From NCBI GenBank assembly GCA_002812745.2, contig NCSJ02000156.1, positions 32,775 through 96,774 of the forward strand: DNA of 64,000 bases. Direction: 5' to 3'. Of this stretch, positions 1,054-47,084 are shown one piece after another. The notes under the pieces are model-generated. The model was given only the letters and a program-made list of their open reading frames with translations. It was not told the DNA's origin and searched no databases. The position numbers and the translations under genes were made by a program. Positions within the stretch are counted from its first letter, which is position 1. Each line of letters starts with the position of its first letter. The DNA is from Scytalidium lignicola (taxonomy: Eukaryota > Ascomycota > Leotiomycetes).

Positions 1054-4000
1054 ATGGAGACCCCTTACGTGTTGACTGATGACGAAGCTGCCGGCCCCTC
1101 GTCAATGCGGCATCTAGAACTCACCTACGGTTCACTATGTTATTGCTTCACAATTCCGGGTCATCTTTACAGCTGTGGGTCAAAATCTGTTCAACGGTTT
1201 TCTGTTGTCCTGGCAAATCAGACAACGGAGGAGCTACAGAGGACAGAGCCGGATTCTGTCATTAGTCTTATGATCCAATACCTTGTGTTTCTCGCGACAG
1301 AAATTCAGAAGGATAATCAGGGCCAGGAATTTCGGAACTACTTGCAAGTAATCCTTCTCGAGTTTGACCAGGAATTCCTTCGAGATGATATTCATTCCTT
1401 TGCAGCCACGCTCCCCGAGGAGCATGAAAGGTTTTCCTTGATTAGATCGTACTGTCTATTGAAGGTGGCCACCAACTACGCGTTTAGTCTATACGAGTCT
1501 CAATTGTTTAAAGCCGCTGGTAATGAGAAGGCAACAATCTTTACGATATTTGGCGGACAAGGAAACAACGAACATTACTTTGAGGAGGTGCGAGAAGTGT
1601 ATCAGCTTTATTATCCATTCATCGGAGACTTTATCGATTCCTGGAGTAAACTTTTAATAAAACTCTCTCAGGATAGTCGCACAGGGGAGCTATACACCAC
1701 AGCGTTAGATGTTACTGGTTGGTTACAAAACCCTGAGACGACGCCGGACGACAGTTATCTCATCTCGTGTGCCGTTAGCTTTCCAGTTATTGGTATAATC
1801 CAACTTGCAAACTATGCAGTGATGTGTAAACTGCTAGGGGCAACCCCAGGAGAAGTACTGAAATATATAAGTGGCACAACTGGTCACTCTCAGGGGGTTG
1901 TGGTAGCCGCGGCTCTTGCTTCTGTGGATTCTTGGCAGTCCTTTGCTATAGCTGCAGAAAATGCACTTACAATACTTTTCTGGATAGGATGCCGAAGTCA
2001 ACAATCCTGTCCACAAATAGTCTTGGATCCGAATAGCATAAAACAGTCAATCGATAATGGCGAAGGAACACCTACACCCATGTTGAGCATTACAGACCTT
2101 CCACGGTCCCAACTGCTACAACATGTCGATGAAGTAAATTCCTATCTCCCTGCGAATAAGCAAATAGATATTGCACTCAAAAATGATGATCGAAACACTG
2201 TTCTTGCTGGTCCTGCGTCATCTTTGTGTGGATTAAACAACAAGATTCGAGAGCACAAGTGCCCTGCTAGCTTGGATCAAACACGAGTCCCATTTTCAAA
2301 AAGAAAGATCCAATTTAAAAATAGGTTTCTTCCAATTACAGCTCCTTTCCACAGCAGGCACCTTGTTTCAGTCTCAGACATTATCAGAAAAGATCTCGAG
2401 AGTATTACCCTTCACAGCTCTAGTCTTCGCATACCAGTCTTCGGGACAGAGAGTGGCGAGGATCTGAGGAAGCTAGATACAACAAACCTCATTCCACTGC
2501 TTGTTAGCATGGTTATAGATGCTCCAGTGGATTGGCGGAGAGCTACGGATTTCCCAGGTGTAACGCATATTCTCGATTTTGGACCCGGCGGAACGTCAGG
2601 AATTGGCACATTTACCCACCGAGCCAAACAAGGGATGGGGGTAAGGGTAATACTAGCAACAGTTTTATCTAGTTCAAATCTAGATATTGGAGCTAAATAT
2701 GACATATACAGCACAAAACACTCCCTGAAATATGGCACAAATTGGCTTAAACTTTACGGCCCTAAATTGGTGAAAGCTATTGGGGGGACCACGTTTATTG
2801 AAACTAAAATGAGTCAGCTCCTAGGCCAACCACCAATTATGGTGGCTGGAATGACTCCTACGACAACCCGGTGGGAATTTGTAGTAGCCACAATGAACTC
2901 CGGCTACCACATTGAATTGGCTGGAGGAGGATTTTCCAACTCTAAAGTGATGACAGAAGCTATTCATAACATCCAACGCAGGATACCTCCAGGACGTGGC
3001 TTGACGATCAACTTAATCTATGCTAGCCCACGTTCCATACAATGGCAACTTTCCCTTATTCGGCAACTACGTCAAGATGGTACTCCAATCCACGGTCTGA
3101 CCATTGGAGCCGGTGTGCCATCTCTGGATGTCGCAAATGAATATATCAAAGAACTAGGTCTCAGCCATATCGCTTTTAAACCTGGATCTACGGAAGCTAT
3201 TAATGCAGTTTTGAAAATTGCGAAGGCCAATCCTGACTTTCCGATCATGTTGCAATGGACAGGGGGACGTGGAGGAGGTCACCACTCGTTTGAGGATTTT
3301 CATGCGCCGATTTTAAACATGTATGGCACAATTCGGGCATGCAATAATATAATTCTTGTCGCAGGCAGCGGGTTTGGAGAAGGATCTGATATATATCCTT
3401 ATATCTCTGGATCTTGGTCCCAGAAGTTTGGATATGCTCCAATGCCATTCGATGGATGCCTTTTTGGAAGTCGGGTGATGGTTGCTAAAGAGGCATATAC
3501 AAGTGGAGCCGTTAAAAGAACCATTGCTGAGACTAAAGGTGTGGATAATGATCAATGGGAGAAAACCTACGACACTGTTACTGGAGGTATTATAACAGTT
3601 AAGTCTGAGATGGGAGAGCCAATACACATGATTGCTACGCGCGGTGTATTGCTCTGGGTTGAAATGGACCGGAATATATTCTCCCTAGATAAAGGCAAAC
3701 GAATTGCAGCGCTAGAAAAGTATCGAGCTTCCATAATACGGAGATTAAACGATGATTTCCAAAAAGTATGGTTCGGCTGTTCAAATGGCAAAGCTGTGGA
3801 CTTAGAAGATATGACTTATGCCGAGGTCTTATATCGATTAGTTGAACTACTATATATTAAACGCACAGCAAAATGGATCGACGTTTCCTACCAGAGGATT
3901 ATTCTGGATTTTATCCGACGTCTTGAAGAACGCTTCATGCACTCAGACACAGCACTATCTATTTTTCAAGATAGCTCTGAACTTCTAGATCCTTATACTG

Positions 4001-7000
4001 CAATCGAAAATGTTTTAAACACCTACCCAGAAGCACAAAACCAGCTCATGAATATTGCAGATATGAATTACTTTCTTCACGTTTGTCAGCGACCGGGTCA
4101 AAAGCCTGTAACATTTGTTCCAGCGCTGGACGAAAACTTTGAGACCTGGTTCAAGAAGGATTCTCTATGGCAATCGGAGAATCTTGAGGCAGTGGTCGGT
4201 CAAGATTCAGACAGATGTTGCATTTTACAGGGTCCTGTAGCAGTTAAGCATACCAAAATAGTCGACGAACCGATCAAACAGATCCTGGATGGTATTAATA
4301 AGACATTGATTACCTTGCTTACTGGTAACCTTTCCCAAACCGACTTCCAGAAGGGGGACCAAACAGTTGCTACTTTAGGCGACGCTGGAATTGGCAGTAC
4401 GGTGGCTACAGAGCTAGATGGCATCACGGGAGTTCTCGGCAAAGATGAGATTGAGTATCGTCTGTCATCTTCCAACCCTCCAAATCCTGAAACATGGTTT
4501 GCATTTCTTGCGGGAAGATGCAATACATGGCGGCATGCATTATTTATGACAGAAAATATCGTTCAAGACCGGAAATTGCTAAGCAACCCGATTAGACGCA
4601 TTTTCAAACCTGCGGGTAATGTCCATGTCAGAATTGCCTACCCTGATATACCAAGCCGCACGATAATTACGTTATTTGAGACAACTGCAACCGATTGTCT
4701 AGTTTCTAGAGTTGACATCCAGCTAGGCAACGAGAATATGGTTTACGTTAATATGTTTGCTTACAAAACTGCAAACGGCACCCCTGCAATCCTGAGTCTG
4801 AAATATAATTTCCTTCCGCAGACCAGGTGTTCTCCTTTGCATGAAGTAATGGAAGGCCGACAATCTCGCATTAAGTCTTTCTATTACCAGCTTTGGTTTG
4901 GTAACACAGACTTCAAGAGCGAAGATTTACTAGCAACTCATTCCCGATCCAGAAGCTTCGTTATAAGCAGGAAAATGATCAAAGAATTTGTCAATGCAGT
5001 AGGGATTTCTGGAGAAGATTTTCTTGAGCATCCTGGGAAACTAATGAGCGCCCCAATGGATCTTGCGATGGCTATCTCTTGGAAAGGACTGATTGAGCCC
5101 CTCTTCTCTGTTGACGCTGACCTTAGCCTACTTGTCCATCTTTCCAATGAGTTCAAAGTTTTGCCCGGCCAAGAATCGTTAAGAGAAGGTGATAGTGTAG
5201 AGAGTACAGCTTCTGTTACCGCTATCCTCAATCAGGATTCCGGCAAGCTGGTCGAGGTTACGGCTACTATCACGCGCGAGTGTATACCGGTCATTGAAGT
5301 CATATCGAAATTCTTATATCGAGGGACTTATTCTGATTACGAAGATAACTTTCAGAGAACTGAAACATCAACAATATTGACTATTTGCTCTGGCACAGAT
5401 CTGGCTGTGCTCAGATCCAAAGCTTGGCTTCGCTTTCAAGATTCTGGAGATGGCTATGGTACTGATCTTGTCGGACGCACACTTATTTTTAAAACACAAA
5501 GTTTAGTACAATTAAGTGGCAAGGCAGTATATCGAAACATCGAAACTACTGGTAAAGTCTTTCTTAAGATGCCGATTCATGGAGATGTTCAGATTGGGAT
5601 CGTGAACTACCAATCATCTGTCGCGCAGGGTAATCCAGTTACAGATTATTTACGGAGACATGGCTCACCTCTTACCCAACATGTTTCTCTCAAGAACCCA
5701 ATTTCCATTAAAACGGAAGCACCGATTCTCCTGAAGATAGCTTCGGCAAATTGGAAATATGCCGAAGCATCTGGTGACTATAATCCGATCCATACATCTC
5801 TCATCTTTTCCAGACTTGCAAACCTCCCTGGAACTATCACCCACGGCATGTATTCTAGCGCTGCGGTGCGTAACTTAGTAGAAAGATGGGTTTATAAAAA
5901 TGAAGTGGGATGTATGCGGCGTTTTTATGCTTCTTTTGTGGGAATGGTCCTTCCAAAGGCTGAGCTGGAGGTGTGTATAACGCATACTGGTATGATTGAT
6001 GGCTGCAAAATTGTTAGCATCGAGGCTAGCAATGCGGACACAAAGGAGAAAGTTCTGATAGGAGAAGCTGAAATAGAACTGCCCACTACGGTGTACTTAT
6101 TTACTGGCCAGGGGAGCCAAGAGAAGAATATGGGCATGGATCTCTATGCTCAAAGCCCAGCTGCAAAGGCAATTTGGGATAAAGCCGATGATTTCTTTTT
6201 TGATAACTATGGTAAGCAAAGATATCAAAGGATGTTGGTCTAGATTACACTAATTAGAGTCAGGTATCTCACTTCTCGAAATTGTCCGGAAAAATCCCAA
6301 AGAACTTACTGTCTTTTTTGGCGGACCTCGTGGACAAGCTATTCGCCAGAACTACATGAACATGGTGCATGAGGTTTTTGAACCTGATGGATCTCCTAAA
6401 ACCGAGAAGATTTTCAAGGAAATAAATGAGTACAGTTTGTCATATACTCACAGAGCACCAAATGGCCTCCTTTCGGCTACCCAGTTTACTCAGCCTGCAC
6501 TGACAATTATGGAGATGGCTAGTTTGGCAGATATGCGGTCAAAGGGGTTAGTTTCGCCAAATTGCATGTTCGCTGGTCATTCCTTGGGGGAATACTCTGC
6601 CCTTGCCGCTCTTGCCAATATAATGCCTCTCGAAAAATGGCTCTCAATTGTCTTTTACCGCGGTCTCACTATGCAAGCCGCTGTCAAGCGGGATGCAGCT
6701 GGCCGCTCGGATTATTCTATGGTAGCCGTCGACCCTAGCAGAATATCTAAGAGTGAGTAAGATCCTACAAGCTTTTGATACGAAATTCTCACACTTGCAA
6801 AGGTTTTAACGAGACTTCTCTAAGATACATGGTAGAGAGAATTGCTGATGAGACCAATTTATTGCTTGAGATCGTTAACTTCAACATCGAAAGCATGCAA
6901 TACGTATGTGCAGGGAGTCTTCAAGCATTAGATTGTTTAACAAATCTAGCAAATCTTGTAAAGGCTACCGAGTTTGACATGACCGTTGAACTATCCTCTA

Positions 7001-7404
7001 GCAATGGGCAGTCTCGCTTCTCGCAACTGCTGCAGGAGAGTCTGCACAAGACAAAGAAAGGGTCTCAGCCTCTAGTGTTGAGACGTGGGGTTGCTACGGT
7101 CCCGCTGAATAGTATTGATGTGCCATTCCATTCAAGTTTTCTCTATCCCAATCTGGCCTCGTTTAGGGATGTTTTACTACAGAACATTAGCCTAGCTTCC
7201 ATCGATCCAAAGACTCTCATTGGGAGGTACGTTCCAAACGTCACCGCACTCCCATTCGATATTACAAGAGAATATTTTCAGAAGGTTCACTATATTACTA
7301 GGTCGCCAGTTATCGAGAAGGTTCTGGCTGGTTGGGATCCGGATTACAATTCATCTCCAAGTACACCTGGCACGGCAAGTACAGAATGGGAGGTTGTGGC
7401 ATGA
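1054..7404 (+). CDS. Fatty acid synthase beta subunit (secondary-metabolism type)
   Basis: The product is a fungal type I FAS beta subunit, which partners the FAS alpha encoded at 41784-47084. Three exons (1054-6211, 6264-6752, 6803-7404) are joined by GT-AG introns of 52 and 50 bp, giving about 2082 residues, a full length for the family. Seen in order: acetyltransferase with GHSQG near residue 280; FMN enoyl reductase with [10 protein letters not shown] near 597 and a [16 protein letters not shown] segment near 735; hotdog dehydratase with YNPIH near 1575; malonyl/palmitoyl transferase starting at LFTGQGSQ, with GHSLGE near 1825. The ATG at 1054 gives a normal N-terminus. The gene looks intact. 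Its place beside NRPS genes, with its own alpha partner, suggests it makes a dedicated acyl starter rather than bulk lipid, like HexB or TOXC. The chain length cannot be read from sequence. Confidence 0.95.
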
Positions 7405-8333: not shown

Positions 8334-11300
8334 TCAATTCAAATTCTTCTGTAGAATCTTGTATTGATCGTCATCTTCATCTGTCAAACTTCGATACAAA
8401 TCTCTAAATGCAGACTGCTGAGAGAGAAGAACGGTCGGATTTTCGTATTCCAAGAGACGTCCCTTATCAATGACTGCTACTTTGTCGAAATCAAGAATTG
8501 TTTTTAGTCTGTGCGCAATCGCAATTATGGTGTACTCCTTAAAATCCTCCCGGATGATTTGTTGCATAACTTCCTCAGTCTTCTTATCAACACTTCGAAA
8601 GCCAATTTGTTAGCATAAAAGTATCTTTTGAAATTAGAGTAGCAAGTCTCACCTGCTAGTTGCTTCATCTAGGACAAGAATCTTGCCTTTGCGCAACAAT
8701 GATCTTGCTAGACTCATAAGTTGCCTCTGACCATGAGAGAATGTACCCTCATCTATCATTATATCAAGACCTCCTTTCTCGTTAACCATTGTCCAGAGCC
8801 CCACTTTTCGGAGGGCTCCAATAACATCCTCTTCACTCGCAGTCTGGAAGGGATCAACGTTCAGTCTAACAGTCCCGTATAAAAGGTAAGGATCCTGGGG
8901 AATTGCGATTAATCTGGAACGTATCGCATCTCGGGGTAGTGTAGATATATCAATGCCATCAATGGTTATGGAGCCTGATTCAATATCGAGTAGTCGAAAA
9001 ATTGTTGAAACGAGAGAGCTTTTACCACTACCTCAAGGTTAACAGCCGAACACTCTTAGTGGTTAGAAAGAAGAGATACCTTCCACTCCTTCCACACACT
9101 GCAATCTTCTCTCCGGCCTTGATCGACAACGTAACAGTTTGGAGAACTGGGTCGGTTCCTGTACTACATCTGTGTTAGGACAAGAAAGAAACGATAGCCT
9201 AGCTTAGTTTACGGATCTCTTACCTATAAGAAGCAGATATATCCTGTATAAGAATGCTGCCTTCCGTAGGCCAGTCAGAAGGTGGATTTGTTTTTTCTGT
9301 TGGAAGATTTTCGGACTCAGTCACGGTGGCGAAGGTTCTTATTCTCGAAACAGCCCCGATGGAGGTCTCCAGGCTAGTCCAGTATGTAATAAGATCCTTA
9401 ATACTAGTGTTGAAATTTACCACATTAACTAGCGCAACGCCTACAAAGCCTCCACTCAGCTTTCCTTGAGTAGCAACGACAATCGTGACCAAGAGAACGG
9501 CGAGGCCGGCAAAAGTCAAGTCGAGCACGATATTTAGCCAACGCTGAACGCAGTACAATAGATAGAATGGCTTCTGTGACTGGTTAAGAAGCTCCCGATT
9601 TCGATGTTTCAGATTGTCTTCCCAGCATAAAGCTCTGATTACGGCGAGGCCGTTGAGTGTCTCGAGGAAATGAGAAAAGAGAGGAGACCTTGCTTCGATA
9701 TCCAACAATCGAAGCTGTCTGGAAGTACGAAGATAGAACTTCTGTATAGCATAGAAAATGGTAATGCAAAGAGGGATAACTGCGGCGATGTATCTTGCTG
9801 AGACAGATACAAAAATCATTTGGGCAGAGCATAACATTCCAGCTGGGAAAATATGTTAGTGACTTCAAACAGATCCTATCACCGTGTGGAATTACCTAAC
9901 GCTGTGTTGAGAAGAGCTATTGGAAGCTCCATATCAACGAGCTGGAGATCTTGGCTGAATCTGAATACAAGTTTAGTAAATCTTATGACTAGTTATTTAC
10001 TCCACTAACCTATTCAAAGTGATTCCCGTGTCCGTATTGGCGAAGAAAGACATTGGAGCGCTTCATTGAGTCAGTCTATGCCGTACATATCATTAATAGC
10101 TAAGGGATTCTCACCTTAATGTTGTTTTTAGGATTATCTCGTGGAGAGTCCCAGAGGTTCTAGGCACCAGGTTGACCATCAAGAACCTCGAAACATTTAG
10201 CATATATTCACATTTATCGTAGAAATTAACTTACCAGCAAAGGCAAACTATTCCTAAAATCGCCAATACTCCGAAGGCCAGATAAACCCCGAGATATAAT
10301 GCAATGTGTTGATTTGGGTGAGACTCGTTTGACTGTGCCCACAACATTACCCACTCGGCTAGATTCACAAGTTAGCCCCGAGAGATATTTTATGGGATCC
10401 CAGAATATATTACAGGGAAATGAAAGACAAAACACTGGCCAGACTGCCAGCACCATAAACGCTGTCAAGACTTTCCACCCGATGATAGAGGCATAGTATT
10501 TATAGACCTGAATATCACCTACTCTCCGAGCATCGTCATCATTGCTAAGTGTAGACATAGCCCTCATAGAAGAATGAGGTTTTGAAAAAGATGCAGTTGA
10601 TTCCTTGGGAGTTTTGGGCTCACGACGCGTGATAGTGAGACTCTGAACGTAGCCGTTGGTGGTATTGAGCTCTTCAAAAGTTCCTTGTTGTACGAGTCTC
10701 CCATCATTACCCAAGGCAATTATATGATCCGCATAAACGAGTTGATCGACTAGTTATGTAAGAGACTTCCTTGCGAGGAGATATGCTGATTTGACTTCTA
10801 CCTACCTAAATTAGTTGCAAATATGACCGTAGTTTTTGCCCTGCGGAAGAGGCCATTCGGGCCAAAGACTTCACTAAAGACATGTTCTCCAGTAGTAGCA
10901 TCTAAGCCACTAAGAATGTCGTCTACAATTACGACGTTCGCTCTTGAATACAGGGCTCGTGCCAATGCCTAAAACTCCAGATTAGAGTTGTTAATCTACA
11001 TTAAATGAAAAGCAATAACTTACCAAGCGTTGTTTCTGCCCACCAGAAAGAGTCATACCGTTACTGCCGACTTGGGTTTGGTCTCCCAGTGGAAAGTGAT
11101 AGAGATCTTGTTCCAATGCACAGGCACGAACAACAGTGTCATACCAAGGTTTGTCAAACTTTGATATGCCTAGAATATTTTCTTGCACTGTCCCATTAGT
11201 TATCCAGGGCGTTTGCCCACAGAATGCAGCTCGCGAAAACGAAGTCTCTAGAGATCCGTCAAAGTACGTAATCTCTCCTAGCATAGTATGGAGTAGAGTT

Positions 11301-13573
11301 GATTTTCCTGAACCAACCGGTCCGATGATCATTACCAAGTCCGAATCGTAGATTTGAAAATCAAGGTCGCAGATGACAGTATCTTGTCCCCTGGCCCACC
11401 AGGAACTTCCACCGTGAACGCATACCATAGCCTTGCGGTTGTTAGGGCGTTGGGAAATAGTGTCTTGAGAAGGTAAACTCGTCATTGCTATTCCCCCCTC
11501 TTCAGTTTCTGGATCTGCCATATTTAGTGGAGGTGGTCTCCTATGCTCTTCTCGGTTTTCAATAACAAGGTATTTTCTAATCCGTTCTATGCATCCTATA
11601 GCAGCCATTGTGTTTGTGCCTGATTCTACTAAGGTGCTGAGAGGAGAGGACAGGAGAGCAAACAGCGTCAGTGCTGTAAATGCGGTCACAGTGTCCAAAG
11701 TTCCACTACCACGGTGTCTATCAATCAAGACAAAGATACCAAATGCGATTGGTGGTGACATTGCGTTGCCGGTATAGGCTGTTTCAAATTCGGTCAACGA
11801 AATCACAACACAGGAGGACCTGGATATGCTCACCTAAACCCAAGACAATAATCAGAAGCTCTCGAAATTTCCTTGAAGCATTTATTTCAGCAGTTCTAAG
11901 GCCAAGAATATTTGATAAGAGCCGAGAAGTAAGACCAGACATTTTAACACCCTTAATGCTGCCGAGCATTGCGGCGGTTGCGGCAACTCTGATTTGTATT
12001 GCTTCAATCCACGCCTTTTGGCGGGGTGCAGCAGCTCCAGCTATCTTCAGAGCCACGAGTGTGCAAACTAAATCCATCCGGTTAGCAATAGATCACGGCT
12101 GATCTTATGAATATTGGAGAAATACTTGATGTTATAACAATTGGTGTTATAGTTGCTACACCTAGTTCGAGCCAGAGCAAACTGAGACACAGAATGATTT
12201 CAATAATTGACCCCCAGGTATCGTGGATATATATCAAGCCTGAAGATATTCTCTCTACATCTGTGCTCATCATAGTAACAGCTGCAGAATCTGCTACAGC
12301 GTCCATACTTAATGACAGCGTCTTGTTATACACTAGCGGGATCAAATTCCCCCGCAATAAGGTGATGACTCGATAAGTCATATGCTGGTAACGCGCTGTT
12401 GAGATCTTGAAGACATTATTAGTAAAGATCCTCTCTAGTTAAGAGGTACAAATTACAGACAGCAATTCCAATATACACAAGAGCATAAGCCCCGACCAGA
12501 CCCCACCCAATATTATTCGAGTTAGCACTCATCGGTGCAGACGCATAGCTCACAACTCTCTTCACTAAAAAAGGCTGCGAGAATCGAAATCCAATCAATG
12601 CCAGCCGTGGTGGGATTCCGGATATCAGGCGCCATCTAAACTGGTGGACTGCAGCCCAAAGCAAGGAATTCTTGGACAGCTGATTTGGCACTAAAAGATC
12701 AACATAAGTTTGGAAACAATTTGGGGTTGTTAGATGGGGCATCCTACATGTGTTCCACCGATGCACCAGTTGAAAATTTGACAATAATTCTGGATCAATC
12801 GAGGGAAGATCGTCTAGAGACAAGGTCTTCTTGAAACCTTTGCCAAGGAGTGGATTCAGCCACCAGAACAGGCATCTATCGAAGACATTCGAGACAGCTT
12901 CCATTGCGTAATCTGCGTACTTCTCTTTCAAAACACTTCGTTTGCTAATTGATTCTAGGACAACTATCACACCTTTCGTAGCAGTTGCTGCTGTAAACAT
13001 TGCCGCCGAGACGCTATTGTTGGGCATTGACCATAATGTTCTAAGTTGAGCTATATCAAAAAGGCAAGAAAATGCGAAGAAGACAATCAACACAGAAGAG
13101 GGCTTGATACTGCGTGTATGCTCGAGATAAGAGAGCAGGAGAGAGCAGAGAGCACCAGCCACTGCGAAGCCATTTGATACAATCGATAATTGGGTCTTGG
13201 GTATGCTTGGAAAAGTCCGGACAATCAAGAACACGAGCTGTAGTATTGCAAGAATACTTAGGCCGACCTGTGAATTCTCTGAGCTGGTATCCAAGATGTA
13301 GAAGGATCTGTCACTAAGTGCAGACAAGCAGATGGTTTGGACTCTACTTACTAGTTTGGAGATACATAATGTACCGCCATTCGCCACCCTGTCATTTCTC
13401 CGCAGCTGTGATACTCGTAGAGAAAATAGCAGTAGAAACAGTGCTAGCGGCGCAATCGTCAAGATGCTCTCCTCGAAGAGCAGCGTAAAGTCGAAATTTT
13501 CTCTACACCCGTGGACTTGCGGACCCCAGGCAGCCTCCACCGCAATAGAGCACGACGCGGTGGTGTTGGACAT
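8334..13573 (-). CDS. ABC-C (MRP-type) multidrug transporter
   Basis: This is a full ABC-C exporter with many introns. The start chosen is the ATG at 13573, which gives MSNTTASCSIAVEAAWGP and matches the usual fungal ABC-C N-terminus; an ATG 39 codons upstream is less likely. Seen in order: TMD0 helices (LFLLLFSL region); TMD1; NBD1 with Walker A GPVGSGKST, signature LSGGQKQR and Walker B VVIVDDILSGLD; TMD2; NBD2 with Walker A GRSGSGKSS (split by an intron), the degenerate signature FSHGQRQL, Walker B ILVLDEATS and H-loop AHRL. Every junction I tested (8.6, 9.05, 10.1-10.4 and 12.4 kb) splices in frame, so the gene looks functional. It likely sits in the plasma or vacuolar membrane and exports or sequesters the cluster product, a role filled in HC-toxin by the MFS pump TOXA. 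Confidence 0.9.
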
Positions 13574-21240: not shown

Positions 21241-21267
21241 TAGTGGGTGGACACAAGTCTAAGCGAA
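21241..21267 (+). repeat. Left terminal inverted repeat of the Tc1-type element
   Basis: This 27-bp end pairs with 22599-22625. The differences are at positions 1, 5 and 6 of the repeat. Confidence 0.9.
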
Positions 21268-21421
21268 TGCGATTCTTTGGCNTTTTTTATGCATGCAACC
21301 ACCACACTTCATATTGCAATTAACAAATCAATTCAAAACCAATTAGAAAACAGATTTTTGATTTGGAATCAGCACTAGCTAAAGATCATATAGCTATACA
21401 ACTAGCTATTACAACCCTTGT

Positions 21422-22585: not shown

Positions 22586-22598
22586 GCGTTTTCGCGTT

Positions 22599-22625
22599 TT
22601 CGCTTAGACTTGTGTCCACATACTG
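22599..22625 (-). repeat. Right terminal inverted repeat of the Tc1-type element
   Basis: This is the reverse-complement partner of 21241-21267 and is followed by the TA target duplication. Confidence 0.9.
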
Positions 22626-32000: not shown

Positions 32001-35000
32001 TAAAAAGACGCTCTCAGCCCACAAATTTAAGACTTCCAAGGTAACAGCCTCACCGACCAAAGAGAGAACCTTTAATTCAGGAGTATCGCTGGGTTTGAGA
32101 AGACAAGAAACCGTGGGTGTAAGGAATGCCCAGGTGACTCTCATTCTATTCATGACGCCGGCCAAATCATTCATGCGATCGTGCTCTGAAGGGACACAAA
32201 CACATCCGCCGCGCATCAAAGTTGTGAATGTTTCTCCTACTGCTACATCGAAAGTATAAGCAGCAAATTGCAAGACTCTAGACTCTTTGCTAATTTTCAT
32301 TGCAGTCCCATGTGCTCTCGCGCTCGAACATACTGCAACGTGCTCTAAGACTATCCCTTTTGGTGTTCCCGTTGAACCAGAAGTGAACACAATAAAGGCT
32401 GAGTTAGTAGGTTTCACAGTTGTACATATTGCGCCTGAGATTTTGGTGGTCTCTTTTGACAGTGACGAATTGACAGCAATAACAGAATCAGCCATGCCAT
32501 CAAAAAGGTAAACGTATTCTGGAGCTGCTACAACGACCGTAGCTTTGGTCGTCTGAATAATGGTCTCCAACCTACTGATTGGATGTGCTGGGTTTAGTGC
32601 AACACACCCACCCCCAGCTTTGAGGACTGCAAGCATGGCCACTACCATCCAGCCTGACTTGTCGAAGCACAGTGGCACAAGAACTTCCGGTCCAACTCCC
32701 AAGTCTACCAACTTGCGTGCCAAAAGGGAGGAATATCTGTCCAGTTCAGAGTAAGTGAAATTCACATCCCAAGCCTCGACAGCTGAAGCTTGCGGTTGGG
32801 TAAGAACTTGACGAGTTACCAAGTCGTGGACGCACTCCTCAATAACCTCCGGGTAAGAGCTATTCCAGTCCTGAATGGTCCTTTTATCATAAGGACTGCA
32901 CAAGTCAACATCACCAACTGTCTGTGTTTCAAGGCAGGAATTAAGTTGGCTTATGACATGCTCAAACTGAAAGAGGATTCTCTGCATTTGCTCCTCAGAT
33001 ACCAACTGGTCATCGAATTGAGCACTGACATGGATCTGGCCATCTGATAGGGAACATTCCATCAGCAAAGGGCACGTATGTGTTTCCATTGTGGTCAAAA
33101 TTGACTTTTTCCACCCTAACGTAGAGTCTCTTGCTGCTTGCTCAGGGGCTGGTTGCACCACTAGGATTGTACGGAAATCACAGGCATTCCAACTACTGCT
33201 ATTAGATTGTCGGAGAGCTTCCTTGATGCGCTGAATTCCGAAATGCTCAAATGGTATCATATCTGTGGTTTGATTCTGCAGCGAGAGAAGAAATTCCAGA
33301 ACAGATTTTGTGTAGTCAATCTGCACCCGAACCGGTACGGTTGCCATGGTCGGCCCTGCAATTTCAGTAATCTGGGGCCAGGAAACGTCACGACCAGTCT
33401 GAGTTACTCCAAAAACTACATCCTTTGAATCAGAGTAACTGGAGAGAACCATTGCCCAAGCTGCTTTTATAACATTTGAGATGGTTACAACCGTGCCAGG
33501 TCTTGAATATATGGAGATACTGTGCTCCAAGCGGGCTTTAGTAAGTGGCAGATAAGATGGAGGAAGTCTTGGAAATTCTACCAATGTCGATCCATCAAGC
33601 TGTGATTGCCAATAGGCATTAGATTCATCCTCGTTATAATCAATCAGGTACTTGATGTACCTATTAAACGAGGCTTGGGAAGTAGCTGGGAGAGCGTCGT
33701 AGGCACGTTCCACAGCTTTAAGGATTATTGCTCTACTCCAGGCGTCATATACTGAATGATGTGCTCTCCATACAAAATATTGAGCATTCTGGTTACAGAT
33801 AATTGCAAATCGATTGAGTGGTTGTCCATATTGGAAAATCCTGCCTCTTTCTCGTTCCTCGTAAGTCGCGAGGTCGTCTGCTTGGTCGAAGTCAATAGTT
33901 GTGTCTAGCACAACTTGGCACGTGCCGTATTTCTCAGTGGGTACAATGACTGTCCGTAAGATGGCGGTGTCTTTGACGGTTATGCTCCATGCCTCCTTAA
34001 ATCTCTCCATGTCGATAGAAAGTGGAAGCTCAAATACAATTTGAGAGAAATAAGCCTCTGGTTGCCGCATGGTTAGAGCCATAAGACTTTCCTGGAGAGC
34101 AGTGCATGGATACGCATCCTGGATACGACTACCATCCACATGTAATTCATCCTGCAGATATTTTCGGAGCTCATCAGTAGAATCAGCATCAATGAGCAGA
34201 GTGAAAGGTTCCAGATCTGGCAGAGACTCCGACAGTGGGGAAACCGACATATCAGTAGCAGCAAGAGCCATGTCAGAGAGCATTGGGTTACGGAAAATAT
34301 CAGCAACAGTTAGAGATATTCCTACATCTCGAGCCGCAGAGATGAGAAGCATGGCCGAGATGGAGTCACCCCCAAGCCCGAAGAAATTATCGGCCGGACT
34401 AATTGCGGTCAATTGGAGATTCAGCTCTTTAGTCCAAAGCGCTTGCAATTTCTTTTCCATTTCCGTATAAACACCTTTGTTGTCAACCGCATCCGATGCC
34501 ATCAAAGAATACACTGTATGGTCTTCTGCAAGCTCCTGGACAACCTTGCGTAGAGATTTTCGATCTATTTTCCCCGACGAATTCATAGGAATATATGACA
34601 AGGGAATATACAACGATGGTATCATGTAAGACGGCAAGGAAGAAGGGAGTGAGTCTTGTATTCCGACTAGGATCGATCTGATGTCATCGGATAGGTCTAA
34701 GGCTCTTAGTCCGGTCCCCCTCGTAGTTAAGTCACCAGCATTTCTTACAAAACCGAAGAAGGCAGTTAGGATCTGTCTTCCTTTCCGCACAACGACGTCC
34801 ACTACCACTTGGGTCTCTTTTGAGAGTTTTTCCCGTATAGTATGCTCGATTTCACCCATTTCAATACGTTGGCCACGCAATTTGACTTGGGTATCCTTTC
34901 GGCCAACAAAACTCATGGTCCCATTAGTGTTGTACTTGACCAAATCTCCTGTCTTATACAGTCGAGCAGGACTTCCGAACATCTGCATCCATCTTGGACT

Positions 35001-36883
35001 ATCTATGAAAGCAGCAGCTGTCTTTGCCGGGTCTTTGAGATAGCCTCGTGCAAGTGTAGGACCCTGGATTAGAAGCTCACCAACAGCCCCTATAGGTGTT
35101 AAAATATCACTATTATCCGCATCTACAATCCAGAGTGTAGCACCCTCTAGGGAATGGCCAAAATTTGCCGGCTCGCATTTGCCATCTAGTAGCCCCACTG
35201 CGCAGCAGACAGAGCATTCAGCTGGTCCGTATGAGTTGAGCAGGCGAACCGAGTTAGCCCAGGTATTCGTGTTCTCAACGGTGATTGCCTCCCCTCCCAA
35301 TGTCAAAGTCTTAAGTCCTGGGGCGTCTCTTGGTGATAGAAGCTTCGCGACGGTTGGTGTCAAAAATGTCCAGTTAACATTCATACGATTAATAGCACCA
35401 ATGAGATCACTCAGTCTTTCCTCTTCAGATGGGACGCATACGCAGCCTCCTTGCATCAGGGTAGTAAAAATATCCTGAATACTAACATCAAATGTGTATG
35501 ACGCAAATTGTAGGACACGAGAATCCGGACCAAGCTGCATGACTTTACTATGCGCACGAGAACTGGTACAAATAGAACGATGTTCTATAACAATGCCTTT
35601 AGGTTTCCCCGTAGATCCAGATGTAAAGCAAACAAATGCAACATTGTGTGGCTCGGAACGATGGCCAATTGTGATATTTTTTGACGCAGGTAAAAGCGAG
35701 ATGGTTTCCCGGTCCACCGGCACAACATTGGGGACTATGCCGCCAAACAAGCCCTGGAGCGAAGGAGCTACAACCACCACCCTGGCATCCGTATCATCTA
35801 TAATATTCTGAATACGGGTGGGCGGGTATGTGGGGTCTATAGCTACAGTTGCTCCACCAGCCTTAAGGATAGCAAGCATAGCAACAATAGTCCATGCGGA
35901 TTTGTGGAAGCAAAATGGCACTAGAACCTCTGGACCAACACCTAGGCTGACCAGGTGGCTTGCCAAGGTGTTTGATAGTTCATTTAACTCCCCAAATGTA
36001 AAGCTCCCATCCCAGGAAGTTACAGCTGGGGAGTCCGGTTGAGTAATTGCATGGTGCTCGATGCGTTCGTGGACGCAGCTGTTCAAAACTTCGGGGCAAT
36101 GCGAGTTCCAATTCTGAACTTGCGCTCGGTGGTGCTCGCTGAAAAGATCCAAGTCCTGGATAAGAGTGAAGGAATTGTCTAAGATGCCAGATATGGCCTT
36201 ATCAAACGTGGAAGCAATGTTGGCGGCCAGAGCCTCGGAGATGAGTGTTAGCGAGTATTCCAGGGTTACAGTGATGCTATTCGAGTCTGGAATATTGACG
36301 TGTAGAAAGATCATAGAATTCTGAAATGTTTGTTAGACCAAACCTATGCCTCACGATAGGAGAAAGCCCTTACTTGAGTCACATTGGATACGTCTTGGGT
36401 GCCTTCTGGCATGTAATCGAAAACGACAGCAGTATTAAAAAGCAGCTTCTCATCGCCTTTTCTCGGAGTTTGGATCCCTTCCCAGGAAGTCTCATGATGA
36501 GAAAGCCCATTGGGAATATCCGCTTCGATATTATTCACGATATCGAGTACCAGAGAGCTCACGTTGAGCTCCGACTTGCAGACGGAGAGGGTGAGACCTG
36601 CCCCATCACTCACCATTGATCCGAATACTACGGCTTCAGAGCCCGTAAAACGGCCAAGGGTTAGCGCCCAAGCCGCCTGAAAAATGGCTGGGAGCGAAAC
36701 ATCAAACACCATGCTAAATCGGTCCAGATCGGATCCATCAGATCCTAGAACCACAAGTGATTTCCCATAACCAAGGCCTTCCTTGCCAGCAGTCGTGCAA
36801 GGAAAATAGCACGGATCGACATTCGCCAGATACATATTCCAGTAATTTGCAGAAGGCGATTCGGGATCACGAGCTGTTGACAT
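23036..36883 (-). CDS. Four-module non-ribosomal peptide synthetase ending in an epimerization domain
   Basis: Exons 36883-36374, 36320-27593 and 27535-23036 total 13737 coding bases once the N at 23843 is left out, giving 4578 residues. Introns are 53 and 57 bp. The order by eye is: partial C (C-terminal lobe only, 1-215); A1; T1 (GLGGDSIS, about 818); C2 (HHSVYDAW); A2; T2 (RLGGDSIL, about 1905); C3 (HHAVYDGW); A3; T3 (RLGGDSVS, about 2990); C4 (HHSIYDGW); A4; T4 (TLGGDSIS, about 4066); E (HHLVIDIVSW, then SRTVGWFT). No C, thioesterase or reductase domain follows E. By GrsA numbering the A1 and A3 codes are both DVQFTGSVC; A2 is DVGFSVAIW and A4 is DVLFVGGVA. I do not assign substrates. The ATG at 36883 fits the fungal truncated-C start. 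The product would be a tetrapeptide whose last residue is D-configured. Confidence 0.93.
23843..23843. other. N inside the NRPS E domain causing an apparent frameshift
   Basis: The single N lies before AAA inside the E domain. Counted as a base it breaks the reading frame; left out, the E domain reads through and the total exon length is divisible by three. It looks like a homopolymer or gap placeholder and not a mutation. Confidence 0.8.
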
Positions 36884-38890: not shown

Positions 38891-39030
38891 TATGAGCTAA
38901 TGCACTATGTAATTTCAATTGTTCTAATCTAGAAAGCTGGAGCAAAGACTCAAATACACAACCCGGATGCTACTCTACCCTGTTCTACTCTACTCAACTG
39001 TGTAAGTTTATGTTGTCGGCTATACCTGAA

Positions 39031-39058: not shown

Positions 39059-39104
39059 ACTCGGGTTAGGGATCATGATTTTCACGTTGACTCTATTTTG
39101 GGGA

Positions 39105-40975
39105 TCAAGCCGCGGTACGCTCGCGGAACTGGAGCAGTGGTCCCCTTTTGGCACCTGTTATGTGGTCATATAGTTGAAGCTCCTTCTCCCTTCGTCTCCA
39201 CGGCGAGGCGGATGAACTGGTTCCTTCCCCTGCACGACCATCTGGACCCGGTGCAACCCGGAAATCCAATTTCCAAAGCACCGTCGCCATCGCGAGCTGT
39301 AGCTCTACCAGTGCAAACCCTTTACCAATACAGCCTCGGGGACCGAGGGAGAAAGGAGTGTATGCGGATTGTGCAAGCTTAGCACCATCCCCTAGCCATC
39401 TCTCGGGGAGAAAAGTGAAAGGATCGGGGTAGTACGATGCGTTGTGGTGAATGCTGTAGATTGGCGTGCCAACATCGCAGCCAGCTGGAATAAAGTGGCC
39501 ATCAACAACAGCACCTCCAGGGCGGACTTCACGCCACAGAGCAGAGCCAACCGGTGGAGAAAGACGCAGTACCTCGTCAATACAAGCACGGAGGTAGGTG
39601 CAGGAAGTGAGCTTGGAGCCCAGGGATATTTCGTCAACAGATGAGAAAGTCATCCGCACTTCTTCAGTGACTTTCGCATACACTTCAGGATATCTAGTGA
39701 GATAAAAGAACAGCCCAGCCAGTGTAGTTGAAGAAGTATCTGACCCTACGCACCGTAAAGTTAGCCTTGGTTGTATTTGCTTTCTCTGAAACCTTTATTA
39801 ACGTACCGGCGACCATTAAAGTAGTACTCTCCGAACCGATTTCTGCAAGGCGGAAACCTTCTCCGGTCTGTGGGTCTTTTGCTGTAATGAGGATGGAAAA
39901 GACATCTTTGGTCCCTGATCCAGACTGACTCATGCGTTCGCGCAAGAAACGATTTACAAATTTGATAAACAGATTTCGGGCTTTGATGGCATCACGGAAA
40001 AGCCATTTATCTAGTCGGAAGATACTGATTTCGGGCGCTTGGATAAGCACTCCAACACGGACATTTGAATTTTCGATTGCTTCTACCACGAAACGATTAC
40101 TGGAATCATCTAACAGGTTATACTTTTGCCCAAGGATTACATCGGCCATGATGTCAAAGGCGAGATAGTTATCTTTAGTTTGACGTGTCAGCTGGGCAAG
40201 ATCTTTGAAAGGATGGCTGCAGACATACTCCATCTAGCCATATTCTTAGGCGAGGACCATTCCGATCCTTTGGAATCTGCCTTACTCGAATCATTTTGAC
40301 ACAGGCAAGAACAAAACTTCATAACATGAGTCATGATTGCACCTTGATATTGTCGGAGCGCGGCATCCGAAAAGCCTTGGCTGATAAGGCGACGGCGTCG
40401 TCCATGCTCCTTCTTATCAAACATGGTGAGAGTGTTGTGAGATCGATGAACCATTGCGTTGTATCCTTTACTCTTCTTTACATTCTTTTCATGCGTATAG
40501 ATGTCTAAAAGGAGTTAGCGGAAGCTGTTTCTTGCACTCTCGGCCTCCTGTTATTCCTGTACCATGTAAGCCGGTGGCAGTATTGACAGCCAGACGATTA
40601 GGGGAATAACGAACAAAGTCCCCTAGGTGCAGTTAGTTGATTGTTGTACATTTGTGAGATTTCGGAGGAAGTCGCTGAACCGTATATTTGGTGACAGTTC
40701 CACATATCGAGATGGATGTCACCTCTCCAGGCGTAGTAGCCCGCGCGTAGATTCGTTAATTTAGCTAATATGGGACCTGGATACTTTGCCAATGGATGGA
40801 AAAATAACCGGTACAAACAGATCATGATAACCTTTTTTTTATTATGTCAGTAAATTACAATCTCAATCGTCTACATGTGCCACAGGCTAAGCTGCTAGAT
40901 CATACATACATAGGATAAAAGGGATGTCAATAAGAACATGAGTCCAACTCTGCTGAATATGGTAGCAAAGAACAT
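39105..40975 (-). CDS. Cytochrome P450 monooxygenase
   Basis: This is a membrane-anchored microsomal P450 needing a reductase partner. The start at 40975 gives a hydrophobic anchor (residues 7-30) and splices (intron 40832-40909) into [13 protein letters not shown], the usual post-anchor proline segment. Four further introns are readable, including 40173-40228 and 39746-39806. Motifs: [17 protein letters not shown] (C-helix region), [13 protein letters not shown], the I-helix AGSDTSST (joined across the 39746-39806 intron), the K-helix [16 protein letters not shown], and the heme loop [11 protein letters not shown] with its cysteine. The gene looks intact. It is divergent from FAS alpha. A role in oxidising the acyl chain or the amino fatty acid is inferred from HC-toxin and apicidin clusters; the substrate cannot be read from sequence. 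Confidence 0.93.
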
Positions 40976-41783: not shown

Positions 41784-44700
41784 ATGCATCTCACAACTCC
41801 GACTAACGATGCCCAAAGGCTCTCATACATTCTTTTGGTGGAATTGCTTGCGTAGGTCCTCTTCATGAAATTAGGACAGATAATCACTAACTTTCTCCTG
41901 CTATAGGCACCAATTCTGCTTTCCTGTAAAATGGTATAACTAGAAATATTGGCCAATATCTAAATTCAAATGACTCCCTAAAGCTGACAAAACTCATAGG
42001 ATCGATACGCAAGATGTGGTACTAGGGCAGTTCATGGCCGAACGCATCATAGAGATTGGGCCGTCAAACACGTTGCTAAATATGGTCAAGCGGACGTTGG
42101 TATTGAAATACAAGACTCACGACGCGGTCTATTCGATGCGAAGGCAGCTTCTTTCTTACACAAAGGATGCCAAAACCATATACTTCGAAGAAGATTCTAC
42201 TGAAGAGGAATCGGTGGTAACAGCTGAAAAGCCCCCAGTAGAATCTCAGCCTCCACCACTCATTATAGCTTCAGCATCCCCTGCACCACCTCCTGCAGCA
42301 GGTAGTTTACAAGTCACTGACTGTGCTGTCACAGCAGTGGAGATTATAAAGACTCTTATATCACATAGTCTCAAAAGACCTGTAGATCAGGTGGCAGGGA
42401 GTAGTTCTATCAAATCTCTTGCGGGAGGTTCGTTATATCTCAGAATAACGTAGCCTTAAATTTGGACTTACGTGTTTTAGGAAGATCTACGCTCCAGAAT
42501 GAAATCATCGGAGATCTTAACAATGAATTTGGGTCGCTGCCTGAGAGCCTAGAAGACCTCTCGATTGAGGAACTAGGTAGCACGATACAAAGTTCCTTTG
42601 GTGGACGACTAGGGAAGCAGTCCATGTCTCTGATAGGAAAGGTAATATCTTCCAAGATGCCTGGAGGATTCAACCTTGCTGCTGTGCGACGGTACCTTGA
42701 AGAACGCTGGGGGTTTGCAGCTGGCCGTCAAAATTCAATTTTGCTCCTTGCTGTCGCCCAACAACCAAACACAAGATTCTTAGGCGATAGCGATGCTAAA
42801 TCATTTTTTGACGGATTGGTAAAAATCCATGCGTTGATCTCCGGCTTGGATCTTGGATCAAAGCAAGGTGCTACACCAGTTAGCTCTGGCGCCCCTACTG
42901 TGGTTGATAGTGCTGTGCTGAATCAGCTTCAAGAAGATCAACTTCAATTTGATCGCAAGATTTTGGAACTCTATGCCAAAAAGCTTGATGTGAATATTAA
43001 TCCTGAAAGTACAATTGCAAATGGGAAAGACGAACTTCAGGCTGAACTAGACGCGTTAACTGGGGAGCTGGGAGAAGTATACACAACTGGAATCAAGCCC
43101 CAGTTTACGCCTTTGAAAGCTAGGGTTTATGATTCGTACTGGAATTGGGCCCAACAAGATTTACTGGCCCTGTTTTATGACATTACCAATACCGGTACCC
43201 AGATATCCGATGAGGAGGTCATAGATCGGGTCAACCAGCTTACGAATAGATCGAGTCCGAGATTGCTCCAGTCAATGCAATATCTAGCCAGCCAATTTTC
43301 AAAATCTGATGACGATAGGCACATTGCAGCTAAGAAATTCATTAATTCGCTCATTGACAAAACTACCGACAGCTTAAACTTGGACCCCGCTGTACTAGAT
43401 GATTCGGCTGTCTCTAGTCCTCAAACCGCCATCGACCAAAATGGAAATATCCGGTTTTTCGAAGTTCCAAAAATAACGATATTGGACGCGNAAAACTTCT
43501 CCGATGTCTAAAACTTCGAGATCAAAATTTTGTGTATGTTCCGAGGCTGTTGAGGGGTCACCATCTCCTACGTGTAGGAACTGCGTCAAGTTTTCTGAAA
43601 ATTTAATACTTCATATTCGAACCAAACAACAAAACGCATGGACGTATAATCAGCAGCTAACTGATCTGTACTTGGAACATTTGGATTTTGCCTCGTCGCA
43701 CGGGATATCTTTTACCAAAAAATCCGTACTGATCACTGGAGCTGGAGCTGGTTCTATTGGGGAGAAATTGGTACAAGGATTGCTCATCGGTGGAGCTCAG
43801 GTGGTAGTTACCAGTAGCTCCTACTCCTCAAAGGTTACAAAACATTACCAGAATATATACACGCATTATGGTGCCAAGGGCTCACGTCTCGTTGTCCTGC
43901 CATTCAACCAAGGGAGTCGTCAGGACATTAAGAACTTAGTTGATTATATCTATGATGAAAAGGTTGGACTGGGCTGGGACCTTGACCACATTATTCCTTT
44001 CGCTGCTATTTCTGAAAATGGTCGAGAGATCGATTGTATTGATTCGAAATCTGAACTCGCTCATCGTATTATGCTCACGAATACACTTAGATTGATCGGC
44101 GAGGTAAAGAGACGCAAGAGCGAACGAAACATTAGAACTCGTCCAGCGCAAGTTATCCTACCATTATCTCCAAACCACGGGACTTTTGGCAATGATGGGT
44201 TGTACTCCGAGTCTAAACTTGGGCTGGAAGCCTTGTTTAACAAGTGGTATTCTGAAAGCTGGGGTGAATATCTTTCTATCTGCGGAGTAACTATTGGTTG
44301 GACCAGAGGTACTGGATTGATGTCGGACAATGATATAGTTTGTGAAGGGATCGAAAAGCTGGGTGTTAGGACATTTTCTCAGAGCAACATGGCTTTCAAC
44401 ATTCTCGGTCTCATGACATCGTCTTTATTATGCGCCTGCCAGCTAGAACCGCTTTTTGCCGACCTGAGCGGCGGTATGGAAACTATCCCCAATCTCAAAG
44501 AAGTCACTAGTCGACTGCGGAAAGAGATCGTTGAAACTAGTAGAACTCAGAAAGCTGTTCTAGAAGAAACCCTCATTGATAGTCAAGTCGAAGGGAAGAA
44601 TGTGCATGAAGCAGTGCCGAAGCCGCCAATCATTACACGCCGTGCGAACATAAAACTTGATTTTCCACAGCTGCCTGATCACGAAGAAATAGAGCGACTT

Positions 44701-47084
44701 AAAAAGGATCTACTTGGAATGGTAGATCTTGAAAGTGTGGTCGTCATCGCTGGATTTTCAGAAATTGGTCCATACGGCAATTCACGGACGAGATGGGAAA
44801 TGGAAGCATTTGGCAAATTTTCCTTAGAAGGGTGTATCCAATTGGCGTGGATGATGGGACTCATAAAGCACAACAACGCTAAGTTTAACGGCAAAGAATA
44901 TCCAGGATGGATAGATGTTGAGAGTGGTAACCCTATCACGGATATGGAAGTTAAGAGCAAGTACGAGGCTCATATTCTTGCACATACCGGTATTCGAGTT
45001 ATCGAGCCGAAGGTACTGGATGGTGCTAACCCGAATAAGAAACTGTTCCTTCATGAAGTAGTCATCCAGCACGACTTGGAACCTTTCGAAACCACAAAAG
45101 AGACCGCACTTGATTTTGAACGGGAACACGGAGATAAAGTCGACATTACTGAGATACCAGAGAGTGGTGAATATTACGTGAAGATCAAGAAAGGTGCAAC
45201 ACTCATGATTCCTAAAGCATTAGGATTCAATCATGCTGTCGGTGGACAAATCCCTACTGGGTGGGATCCTCGTGTCTATGGAATTTCAGACGATATTATC
45301 TCACAAGTTGATGTTACCGCACTCTATGCCCTAATATGCACTGTAGAAGCGTTTCTTGCGGCTGGAATCACAGATGTTTACGAACTATATAATTACATCC
45401 ATGTGTCCGAACTTGGAAATTGTGTCGGATCTGGTATTGGCGGTATGACAGCTTTACAGAAAATGTTCAAGCAAAGGTTCATGGACAAACCAGTACAGAA
45501 GGACATATTAGCGGAGACATTCATTAGTACGATTGGAGCTTGGGTTAACATGCTTCTCCTTTCTTCTTCTGGTCCAACAAGTTCGCCGGTAGGAGCTTGC
45601 GCAACAGCAATTGAGTATGTATGCTTTCCGAATTTTTTTATTTTCTAGACGGATGGAACGCAGATACAATCTTGTGGACTCGCATCCTGTCTTTGTTTTC
45701 AATATATTTTCTTGATTGAGCAATGCTGACTAAAAACCCTCGGCAGGTCACTGGATGTTGCATGCAATATGATCTCGAATGGCAAGGCAAAGGCATGCCT
45801 TGTCGGAGGAGTCGATGATCTAACCCAAGACATATCTTATGAATTCGCAAATATGAAAGCAACCATCAACGCTACAGATGATTTTGCTAGAGGACGAGAT
45901 GCAAAGGAAATGTCCCGCCCAGCCACTACCACCAGGAACGGCTTTGTAGAGGCTGAAGGTGCTGGTATCCAGCTTATCACAACAGCAAAACTCGCGCTCG
46001 ACATGGGTCTACCGATCTACGGTATCGTTGCTTTGACACAGACAGCTATGGATAAAATCAGCCGTTCAGTCCCTGCTCCTGGGAAGGGTATTTTGACCAT
46101 TGTACGGGAAGCCCCCTCTCAATATCCAGCCCCAATTCTTAACCTTAAGTATCGAAAGAGAAATCTGGATTTACGCCTTAGTCAAATTGACGAAAGCAAG
46201 AAAGACGAATTACGCTACTTACACGAAGAGGTTGGAAAGTTCAAGAACAGCTCTCAAAGAAATCTCCAATTAGTCGAATACGAAGGACAAAGGAAAAGGA
46301 ATATTGAATTGGAAGCTGATCGGCAGCGAAGGGAAGCCTTGAGAATATATGGAAACCAGTTTTGGCATGGTGATCATCGTATCTCTCCTCTTCGTGGGGC
46401 TCTCGCTGTGTGGGGTCTCACAATTGACGATCTTGGTGTTGCGTCATTCCATGGCACTTCGACAAAGCTCAGCGAAAAAAATGAGTCGGAGCTCATACAT
46501 CGGGAGCTAGCTCAATGTAAGACGAACCCTCCTCTATCTCTGATCAAATACCATGGCTGTTACTGACGAACATGATATCTCTAGTGGGCCGCACAGCCGG
46601 TAATGAAATCCTTTGTATCTTTCAAAAACACCTCACTGGACATCCTAAGGGTGCAGCAGGGGCTTGGATGATCAATGGTGGTCTCCAAACCCTTTCTACT
46701 GGGCTGGTACCTGGCAATTCTAACGCTGATAATATCGACTCTACGCTGCGTCAATTCTCCCACCTCATCTTTCCAAGTCGCACTCTTAAGACCAATGGGA
46801 TTAAGGCCTTTTCCGTTACATCATTTGGATTTGGGCAGAAAGGCGGACAAGCCATTATTGTCCATCCAATGTATTTGTTTGCAACTATTGACGAGCAAAC
46901 ATATCATGTATACAAGCAAAAGCGACAAGCAAGGCAGATCAAGGGAGAACGGCACTATGTAAATGCCTTGATGACAAATAGTTTGTGTGTAGTAAAAGAA
47001 CGACCACCCTACGGAGACGGAGAAGCTGGGTTAAACTTTATTATGAATCCTAATGCAAGGGTGGAAACAAGTATGAATATATAA
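41784..47084 (+). CDS. Fatty acid synthase alpha subunit lacking the PPT domain
   Basis: This partners the FAS beta at 1054-7404. Exons 41784-41851, 41907-41933, 42000-42427, 42481-45614, 45747-46516 and 46585-47084 total 4926 coding bases with the N at 43491 left out, giving 1641 residues. Seen in order: N-terminal MPT tail (AERIIEIGP), ACP whose [10 protein letters not shown] holds the phosphopantetheine serine, ketoreductase ([13 protein letters not shown]), and ketosynthase with GACATAIE (active Cys, split by the 45615-45746 intron), [17 protein letters not shown] and SFGFGQKGG. The chain stops soon after [11 protein letters not shown]. Primary FAS alpha runs on for roughly 200 residues into a phosphopantetheinyl transferase domain, which is absent, as I recall for HexA-type subunits. 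The ACP would then need a separate PPTase. The start is set by the conserved YILLVELLA segment. Confidence 0.93.
43491..43491. other. N inside FAS alpha causing an apparent frameshift
   Basis: The N precedes AAAA in the longest exon, before the ketoreductase domain. With it left out, the frame continues and the six exons sum to exactly 1642 codons including the stop. Confidence 0.75.

Follow-up and report, generated by a model that had tools for sequence, protein, structure and literature searches.

Eight neighbouring genes of the fungus Scytalidium lignicola, lying at positions 1,054–47,084 of the 64,000-base stretch of DNA analysed here (the window, bases 32,775–96,774 of contig C62, which has 96,774 bases, in a genome of 46.85 Mb), probably form a conserved cluster of secondary metabolism that makes a small lipopeptide, a reading that we hold with moderate confidence and in which the product would be a tetrapeptide with one or more 2-amino-alkanoic residues. 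The genes encode a four-module nonribosomal peptide synthetase (NRPS), the alpha and beta subunits of a fatty acid synthase (FAS), an aminotransferase of the branched-chain amino acid type (BCAT), a cytochrome P450, a glutamine-dependent asparagine synthetase (AsnS), a hotdog protein and an ABC-C transporter. They were read with Pfam on open frames and, for AsnS, with an exon model, and every gene named in an earlier note on this DNA was recovered by Pfam. The kind of cluster is known, and what is unusual is the epimerization domain that ends the NRPS without a release domain, together with the dedicated AsnS. From left to right the order is FAS beta (+), ABC-C (-), hotdog protein (-), BCAT-type (+), AsnS (-), a Tc1-type transposon, NRPS (-), P450 (-) and FAS alpha (+):

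1054..7404, + strand: FAS beta subunit, three open frames (Pfam; 100% to P0121 = B7463_g7700)
8334..13573, - strand: ABC-C (MRP-type) transporter, several exons, ends approximate (ABC_membrane, ABC_tran, TMD0_ABC)
14571..15566, - strand: 4HBT_2 hotdog (thioesterase-like) protein, start approximate (Pfam 4HBT_2, E 1.1e-6)
16350..17602, + strand: BCAT-type (fold IV) aminotransferase, start approximate, main frame 16568-17278 (Aminotran_4, E 1.1e-16)
18201..20382, - strand: glutamine-dependent AsnS, ten exons, 566 aa (GT-AG exon model)
21249..22622, - strand: Tc1-type transposon, ends approximate, not a part of the pathway (HTH_Tnp_Tc3_2, open reading frames, inverted ends seen)
23036..36883, - strand: four-module NRPS, frame change at the N at 23843 (Pfam, motif positions, tblastn of P0002, epimerization-domain motifs)
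39105..40846, - strand: cytochrome P450, several exons, ends approximate (Pfam p450)
41974..47084, + strand: FAS alpha, no visible C-terminal PPT domain, frame change at the N at 43491 (Pfam; alignments to solved FAS alpha)

The earlier note had held that these genes belong together, and this is now backed by the relatives of three of them. The closest named relatives are all from Coleophoma cylindrospora: the NRPS P0002 (BP6252_13184; 64% identity), the FAS beta P0123 (59%) and the AsnS P0242 (76%). Each of the three carries 1,160,198 bases as its longest contig, which points to one shared contig and not to any distance between the genes, while another FAS beta of C. cylindrospora, P0136, belongs to a contig of 2,727,470 bases. 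Trees were built by a quick method from rows chosen by hand (of 120 hits each, 27 for AsnS and 25 for FAS beta), with SH-aLRT as the only support and a midpoint root. The AsnS tree places the window copy and P0242 together (SH-aLRT 100), opposite 27 others that include the other copy of the same genome, on contig C270. In the FAS beta tree the window copy is found with P0122 and P0123 (SH-aLRT 100); the genome's own copy on C66 groups with P0161 of Xylogone among the housekeeping copies, and a further copy, on C64, has a very long branch and an unsure placement. The cluster thus looks like a conserved unit. That the genes are neighbours by chance and share no pathway is very improbable: an AsnS gene alone would be ordinary, and a transposon and AT-rich DNA are nearby, but three of the genes apparently lie on one Coleophoma contig and both AsnS and FAS beta have clades of their own.

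Architecture of the synthetase

The NRPS has the order partial C-A1-T1-C2-A2-T2-C3-A3-T3-C4-A4-T4-E, in which C, A, T and E stand for condensation, adenylation, thiolation and epimerization domains (Pfam AMP-binding, Condensation and PP-binding, and motif positions), and its four A and four T motifs make four modules. The Coleophoma protein P0002 (4,591 aa), which is uncharacterised, has the same domain order and spans the gene end to end in a tblastn search (residues 3-164 at 42%, 167-4326 at 65% and 4284-4573 at 58%). The last domain of the condensation superfamily holds HHLVIDIVSW and SRTVGWFT, a motif of the kind that serves as epimerase mark for HTS1 and APF1 (PMC4109984). The domain next to T1 is a C domain carrying HHSVYD, no E domain stands after module 1, and no terminal condensation domain (C_T) was matched downstream of the E domain; the gene ends 179 residues beyond the E motif TVGWF, and P0002 ends 183 residues beyond it.

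The same ending was looked for in the best 120 of the 6,788 NRPS relatives above threshold, where a terminal E domain is found in 13 by strict motif and in 19 by domain label; in five further relatives the E domain is followed by 540–607 residues, with a weak C-like domain after it in three (P0004, P0006 and P0007). Judged by these relatives, ending in E is a repeated arrangement rather than something produced by the transposon. The idea that the transposon had cut the gene and left the E domain last was rejected, since the Coleophoma NRPS has the same end. A literature search on fungal terminal epimerization domains found no paper. Fungal NRPSs with E last by strict motif, of approximately 4,300–4,940 aa and of several orders, are P0017, P0042, P0045, P0059, P0078, P0084, P0101, P0107, P0111, P0114, P0119 and P0120.

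At its other end the NRPS opens with a C fragment that is without the first, catalytic half of the domain in both S. lignicola and Coleophoma: neither terminal nor internal C domains match the HHxxxD half upstream, and therefore the NRPS shows no starter C domain that could take an N-acyl chain. This bears on the alternative that the FAS chain caps the N-terminus of an ordinary lipopeptide as an acyl group, with the BCAT making some other unusual amino acid. N-acyl chains are frequent in fungal lipopeptides, as is generally known, but the loss of the catalytic half in both fungi speaks against this alternative, as does the lack of an acyl-CoA ligase or acyltransferase among the frames scanned, and we consider it unlikely. 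After Coleophoma, the best matches of the fragment are a mixture of C domains from other NRPSs, some of them terminal, some post-E and some N-terminal. A circular permutation, in which the fragment would be the lost terminal C domain, was rejected as unsupported, the fragment being not special to this gene.

Nine pocket positions, taken after GrsA, define the code of each A domain. The codes are DVQFTGSVC for A1 and A3 alike, DVGFSVAIW for A2 and DVLFVGGVA for A4, and P0002 has the same ones. The code of A1 and A3 recurs exactly in two of the 436 A domains that could be read (of 440 found in the best 120 relatives), and both belong to P0002, as its A1 and A3. The code of A4 has 15 neighbours within two changes among the listed relatives, and several of these are the fourth domain of other terminal-E NRPSs. 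Motif-based and alignment-based readings disagree at the last position for some relatives (for A2 of P0002, an ending in IW versus one in IS). The A domains pair one to one with those of Coleophoma at 67–72% identity, whereas A1 and A3 within the window share 60%, so that the A1/A3 duplication is older than the split from Coleophoma. Given their equal codes, A1 and A3 suggest that positions 1 and 3 of the peptide take the same residue.

The proposed building block and its known parallels

The FAS beta subunit has the Pfam domains FAS_N, SAT, helical, meander, MaoC and Acyl_transf; its MPT/AT frame aligns to solved fungal FAS beta, and besides P0123 it shares 69% identity with P0122 and 52% with P0136. 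In FAS alpha, Pfam finds ACP, helical, KR-like and KS domains, and the frames match solved fungal FAS alpha chains across ACP, KR and KS and keep the KS cysteine and histidine motifs, whose roles are well known. Housekeeping FAS alpha carries a C-terminal PPT domain. Here, the last frame aligns up to residue 1706 of the 1878 of the solved chain and then stops, only short frames are found in the 900 bases after the stop, and therefore this domain is not seen; a further 5' exon is likely. The BCAT-type protein scores 169 bits with the BCAT model PRK13357 (cut-off 307), and the lysine of its GTGAAKVGGNY, which we take to be catalytic, is aligned with the lysine of solved BCAT. One frame of the ABC-C transporter has its best match in TIGR00957 (MRP), at 115.5 bits against a cut-off of 1470 that is set for whole proteins. 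The hotdog protein has no NCBIfam match; an AlphaFold model of it alone had a mean pLDDT of 30.6 and was not used. FAS alpha, FAS beta, BCAT and P450 recur without AsnS at a second locus of the genome, on contig C64 and beside different neighbours there, a recurrence that marks these four as the likely shared set of genes for the building block.

In the route proposed here, the dedicated FAS pair would make a saturated medium-chain acid, the single P450 would oxidise it at C2 to the 2-hydroxy and 2-oxo acids, and the BCAT-type aminotransferase would turn the latter into a 2-amino-alkanoic acid. The NRPS would activate this acid and other amino acids and join four residues, with the same one at positions 1 and 3, and the terminal E domain would turn residue 4 to the D form. 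There is no built-in thioesterase, reductase or terminal C domain, and release would be left to water or to another enzyme, which may be the hotdog protein. AsnS would supply asparagine, as a residue or as an amide source, and the ABC-C pump would export the product.

By gene logic, the closest known systems are those of aspercryptin, HC-toxin and apicidin. The aspercryptin (atn) cluster of Aspergillus nidulans includes FAS alpha and beta, and its product has six residues made by six modules, compared with four in the window NRPS; it is not known to contain an AsnS. By types of gene rather than sequences, it also shares an NRPS (atnA), a lipopeptide product and BCAT genes, of which it has two as against one BCAT match on C62; atnH and atnJ are thought to make 2-aminocaprylic, 2-aminodecanoic and 2-aminododecanoic acid. 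A literature search that combined aspercryptin, fatty acid synthase and aminotransferase found no paper.

Synthetases of the HTS1/APS1 type have a terminal condensation domain for ring closure, and this domain was not found in the window NRPS. For HC-toxin, a requirement for FAS and TOXF has been described and, in the TOX2 loci of Cochliobolus carbonum and Alternaria jesenskae, a four-module NRPS, FAS beta (TOXC), FAS alpha (TOXH) and a BCAT (TOXF), all of which have counterparts here (PMC3729494). In HTS1, however, the E domain sits between modules 1 and 2, whereas in S. lignicola it is last. TOX2 has an MFS pump (TOXA), a racemase (TOXG) and a transcription factor (TOXE), while the window has an ABC-C pump, no racemase that could be seen and an added AsnS; no pathway-specific factor of the TOXE or APF2 (bANK) type was found in the window frames scanned, which did not cover all shorter or split frames. 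As for apicidin F of Fusarium, it has been proposed that a FAS chain is oxidised by P450 to a 2-oxo acid and then transaminated by a BCAT-type enzyme; for the 2-amino fatty acid of apicidins the cluster has an NRPS, FAS alpha, P450s and an aminotransferase of BCAT type, as in the window, but also two P450s rather than one, a FAD monooxygenase, an O-methyltransferase, a pyrroline carboxylate reductase and a different pump (PMC4109984). The apicidin cluster is described as having no FAS beta subunit (PMC3729494), and the window has one. Since the locus shows a single P450 and no visible FAD monooxygenase, its residue is more probably a plain 2-aminoalkanoic one than an oxidised one, such as the oxo or epoxy 2-aminodecanoic residues known from apicidin and HC-toxin.

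The cluster is thus not a member of the HTS1/APS1 family, because its NRPS departs from that layout in the position of E and in the terminal C domain, although the logic of the building block is alike. This domain order, on which the earlier note was silent, is where the locus differs most from HC-toxin and apicidin. A cyclic tetrapeptide inhibitor of histone deacetylase of the HC-toxin/apicidin type would account for the FAS, the BCAT, the P450 and the four-module NRPS that those pathways have in common; it is made improbable by the end of the synthetase, by the contrast between the single P450 and the set of oxidising enzymes described for apicidin F, and by the fact that the histone deacetylase copies that lie near FAS and BCAT genes in this genome sit on C64 and not at the window. 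The earlier note had suggested a 2-amino-fatty-acid peptide following the HC-toxin/apicidin logic: the FAS, P450 and BCAT building block is supported, and the cyclic tetrapeptide of that kind is not.

Several points weigh against the 2-amino-alkanoic tetrapeptide. What the sequence shows is the genes, the domain order, the conserved codes, the co-occurrence of three genes in Coleophoma and the dedicated clades of AsnS and FAS beta, and from these we infer the chemistry, the chain length, the A domain that takes the alkyl residue, the release and the role of AsnS. That one P450 performs both oxidation steps is an assumption. The A-domain codes yield no residue name, and equal codes are not proof of equal residues. 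Co-location in Coleophoma covers three of the eight genes (NRPS, FAS beta and AsnS) and not their distance, BCAT and P450 are broad families in which no curated cut-off was reached, and the call of the hotdog protein is weak. If the tetrapeptide reading is right, the locus is a conserved, still uncharacterised way of making a peptide with a 2-amino fatty acid, its NRPS ends unusually, with E last and no built-in release, and the way in which fungal NRPSs with a terminal E domain release their products becomes a testable question, given how many of the best relatives end alike by strict motif.

The asparagine synthetase

The AsnS model agrees at 99% with the annotated B7463_g7704 (P0241), joins an Asn_synthase domain to a GATase domain (Pfam) and aligns with E. 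coli AsnB (1ct9) from residue 12 to residue 562. In such enzymes the cysteine after Met1 serves the glutaminase and the SGGxDSS loop the synthetase. Both are kept, as MCGI and SGGLDSS, all listed motifs of the two halves are present, and 291 of 310 near-invariant columns (by comparison with 118 other listed hits) are retained. Five replacements are common to both cluster copies, in S. lignicola and Coleophoma (C168A, A225T, G230A, S283T and Y332F), at two of which the usual residue, Gly (230) and Tyr (332), is also kept by the aligned enzymes of E. coli and human. Elsewhere in the genome a single place matches AsnS, the housekeeping copy on C270. As its sequence and tree position indicate, the cluster AsnS is an intact, dedicated and co-inherited extra copy. 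The possibility that it is altered for another substrate was not supported, the motifs being canonical.

Two roles have to be weighed for this copy. It may supply asparagine, or it may be a self-resistance copy, with the peptide inhibiting asparagine synthetase, a notion that concerns AsnS only and is otherwise compatible with the tetrapeptide reading. An intact enzyme with its own clade, kept in Coleophoma and accompanied by a housekeeping copy elsewhere, would fit self-resistance, as would five shared replacements at near-invariant residues; but the supply role accounts for the same facts, the shared changes may be drift or ancestry, and the Phe at 332 is also present in at least one ordinary row (P0306). 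Supply seems the likelier role, since nothing in the locus needs an AsnS inhibitor, and self-resistance is doubtful. Somewhat more doubtful still is its full form, in which the alkyl tetrapeptide inhibits AsnS and the producer survives through the extra copy, whose shared replacements lie near the synthetase loop; if self-resistance were true, it would offer a gene-guided natural inhibitor of asparagine synthetase. In either case, the co-inherited AsnS is a clean handle for separating precursor supply from target-based self-resistance.

The earlier note had also held that this set of genes matches no known cluster. This holds as far as the literature searched goes: the searches, which reached few subscription papers, yielded no report of an asparagine synthetase in a fungal NRPS/FAS cluster, and the matches that combined asparagine synthetase and NRPS were, judged by their titles, on bacteria, general reviews or unrelated; aspercryptin is nevertheless a near known parallel.

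Flanking DNA and other loci

S. lignicola lives on wood and litter. The strain, DSM 105466, is a saprotroph and occasional opportunist whose genome was sequenced by Ion Torrent (PMC6256649). The window contains 15 Ns, each of which adjoins a run of at least three equal bases, and the reading frame shifts at two single Ns, at 23,843 in the E domain of the NRPS and at 43,491 in FAS alpha. Sequencing ambiguity is the likely cause of these changes, because the Ns adjoin equal-base runs in an Ion Torrent assembly; the frames were left as they stand, and no base was added or removed.

The Tc1-type transposase, at 21.6–22.6 kb, separates AsnS from the NRPS. To the right of FAS alpha follow an AT-rich block at 48–56 kb (18–27% GC), a quinone oxidoreductase-like gene and an MFS gene; the block (window 48000-56000) resembles a mutated repeat region. 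On the left, FAS beta is adjoined by a threonine ammonia-lyase-like gene (C62:31568-32832, minus strand, reaching window base 58). The lysine of the SFK motif has a role in the use of pyridoxal phosphate by threonine ammonia-lyase, and in the alignment this gene has Arg where solved enzymes have that lysine; it may be a pseudoenzyme or a repurposed member of the cluster.

The second FAS locus, C64:1-36500 (loci L034, L021, L022, L023 and L024), has FAS alpha and beta, two BCAT-like genes, two P450s, two class I histone deacetylase-like genes (two of the eight such places in the genome), a 2-isopropylmalate synthase-like gene and an isopropylmalate dehydrogenase-like gene. Identities with the window are 37% for FAS beta, 58% and 50% (also given as 57% and 53%) for the BCATs, and 49% and 41% for the P450s, the window P450 being matched to the C-terminal exons of the two. 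No condensation-domain match was found on C64. The locus resembles a cluster for an inhibitor of histone deacetylase that includes resistance copies and a pathway of chain extension leading to 2-oxo acids. The window and C64 offer a comparison of two FAS/BCAT loci, one with AsnS and the other with histone deacetylase copies, and C64 deserves a study of its own. An NRPS match on the 45,998-base contig C252 runs to C252:45991, only 7 bases short of where the contig stops, and may be part of a locus that lies on a different contig, for instance C64. A third BCAT-like gene, at C643:97068-97700 (locus L037), has 63% identity to that of the window; an adenylation-type match, C643:108662-109246, lies about 11 kb away from it.

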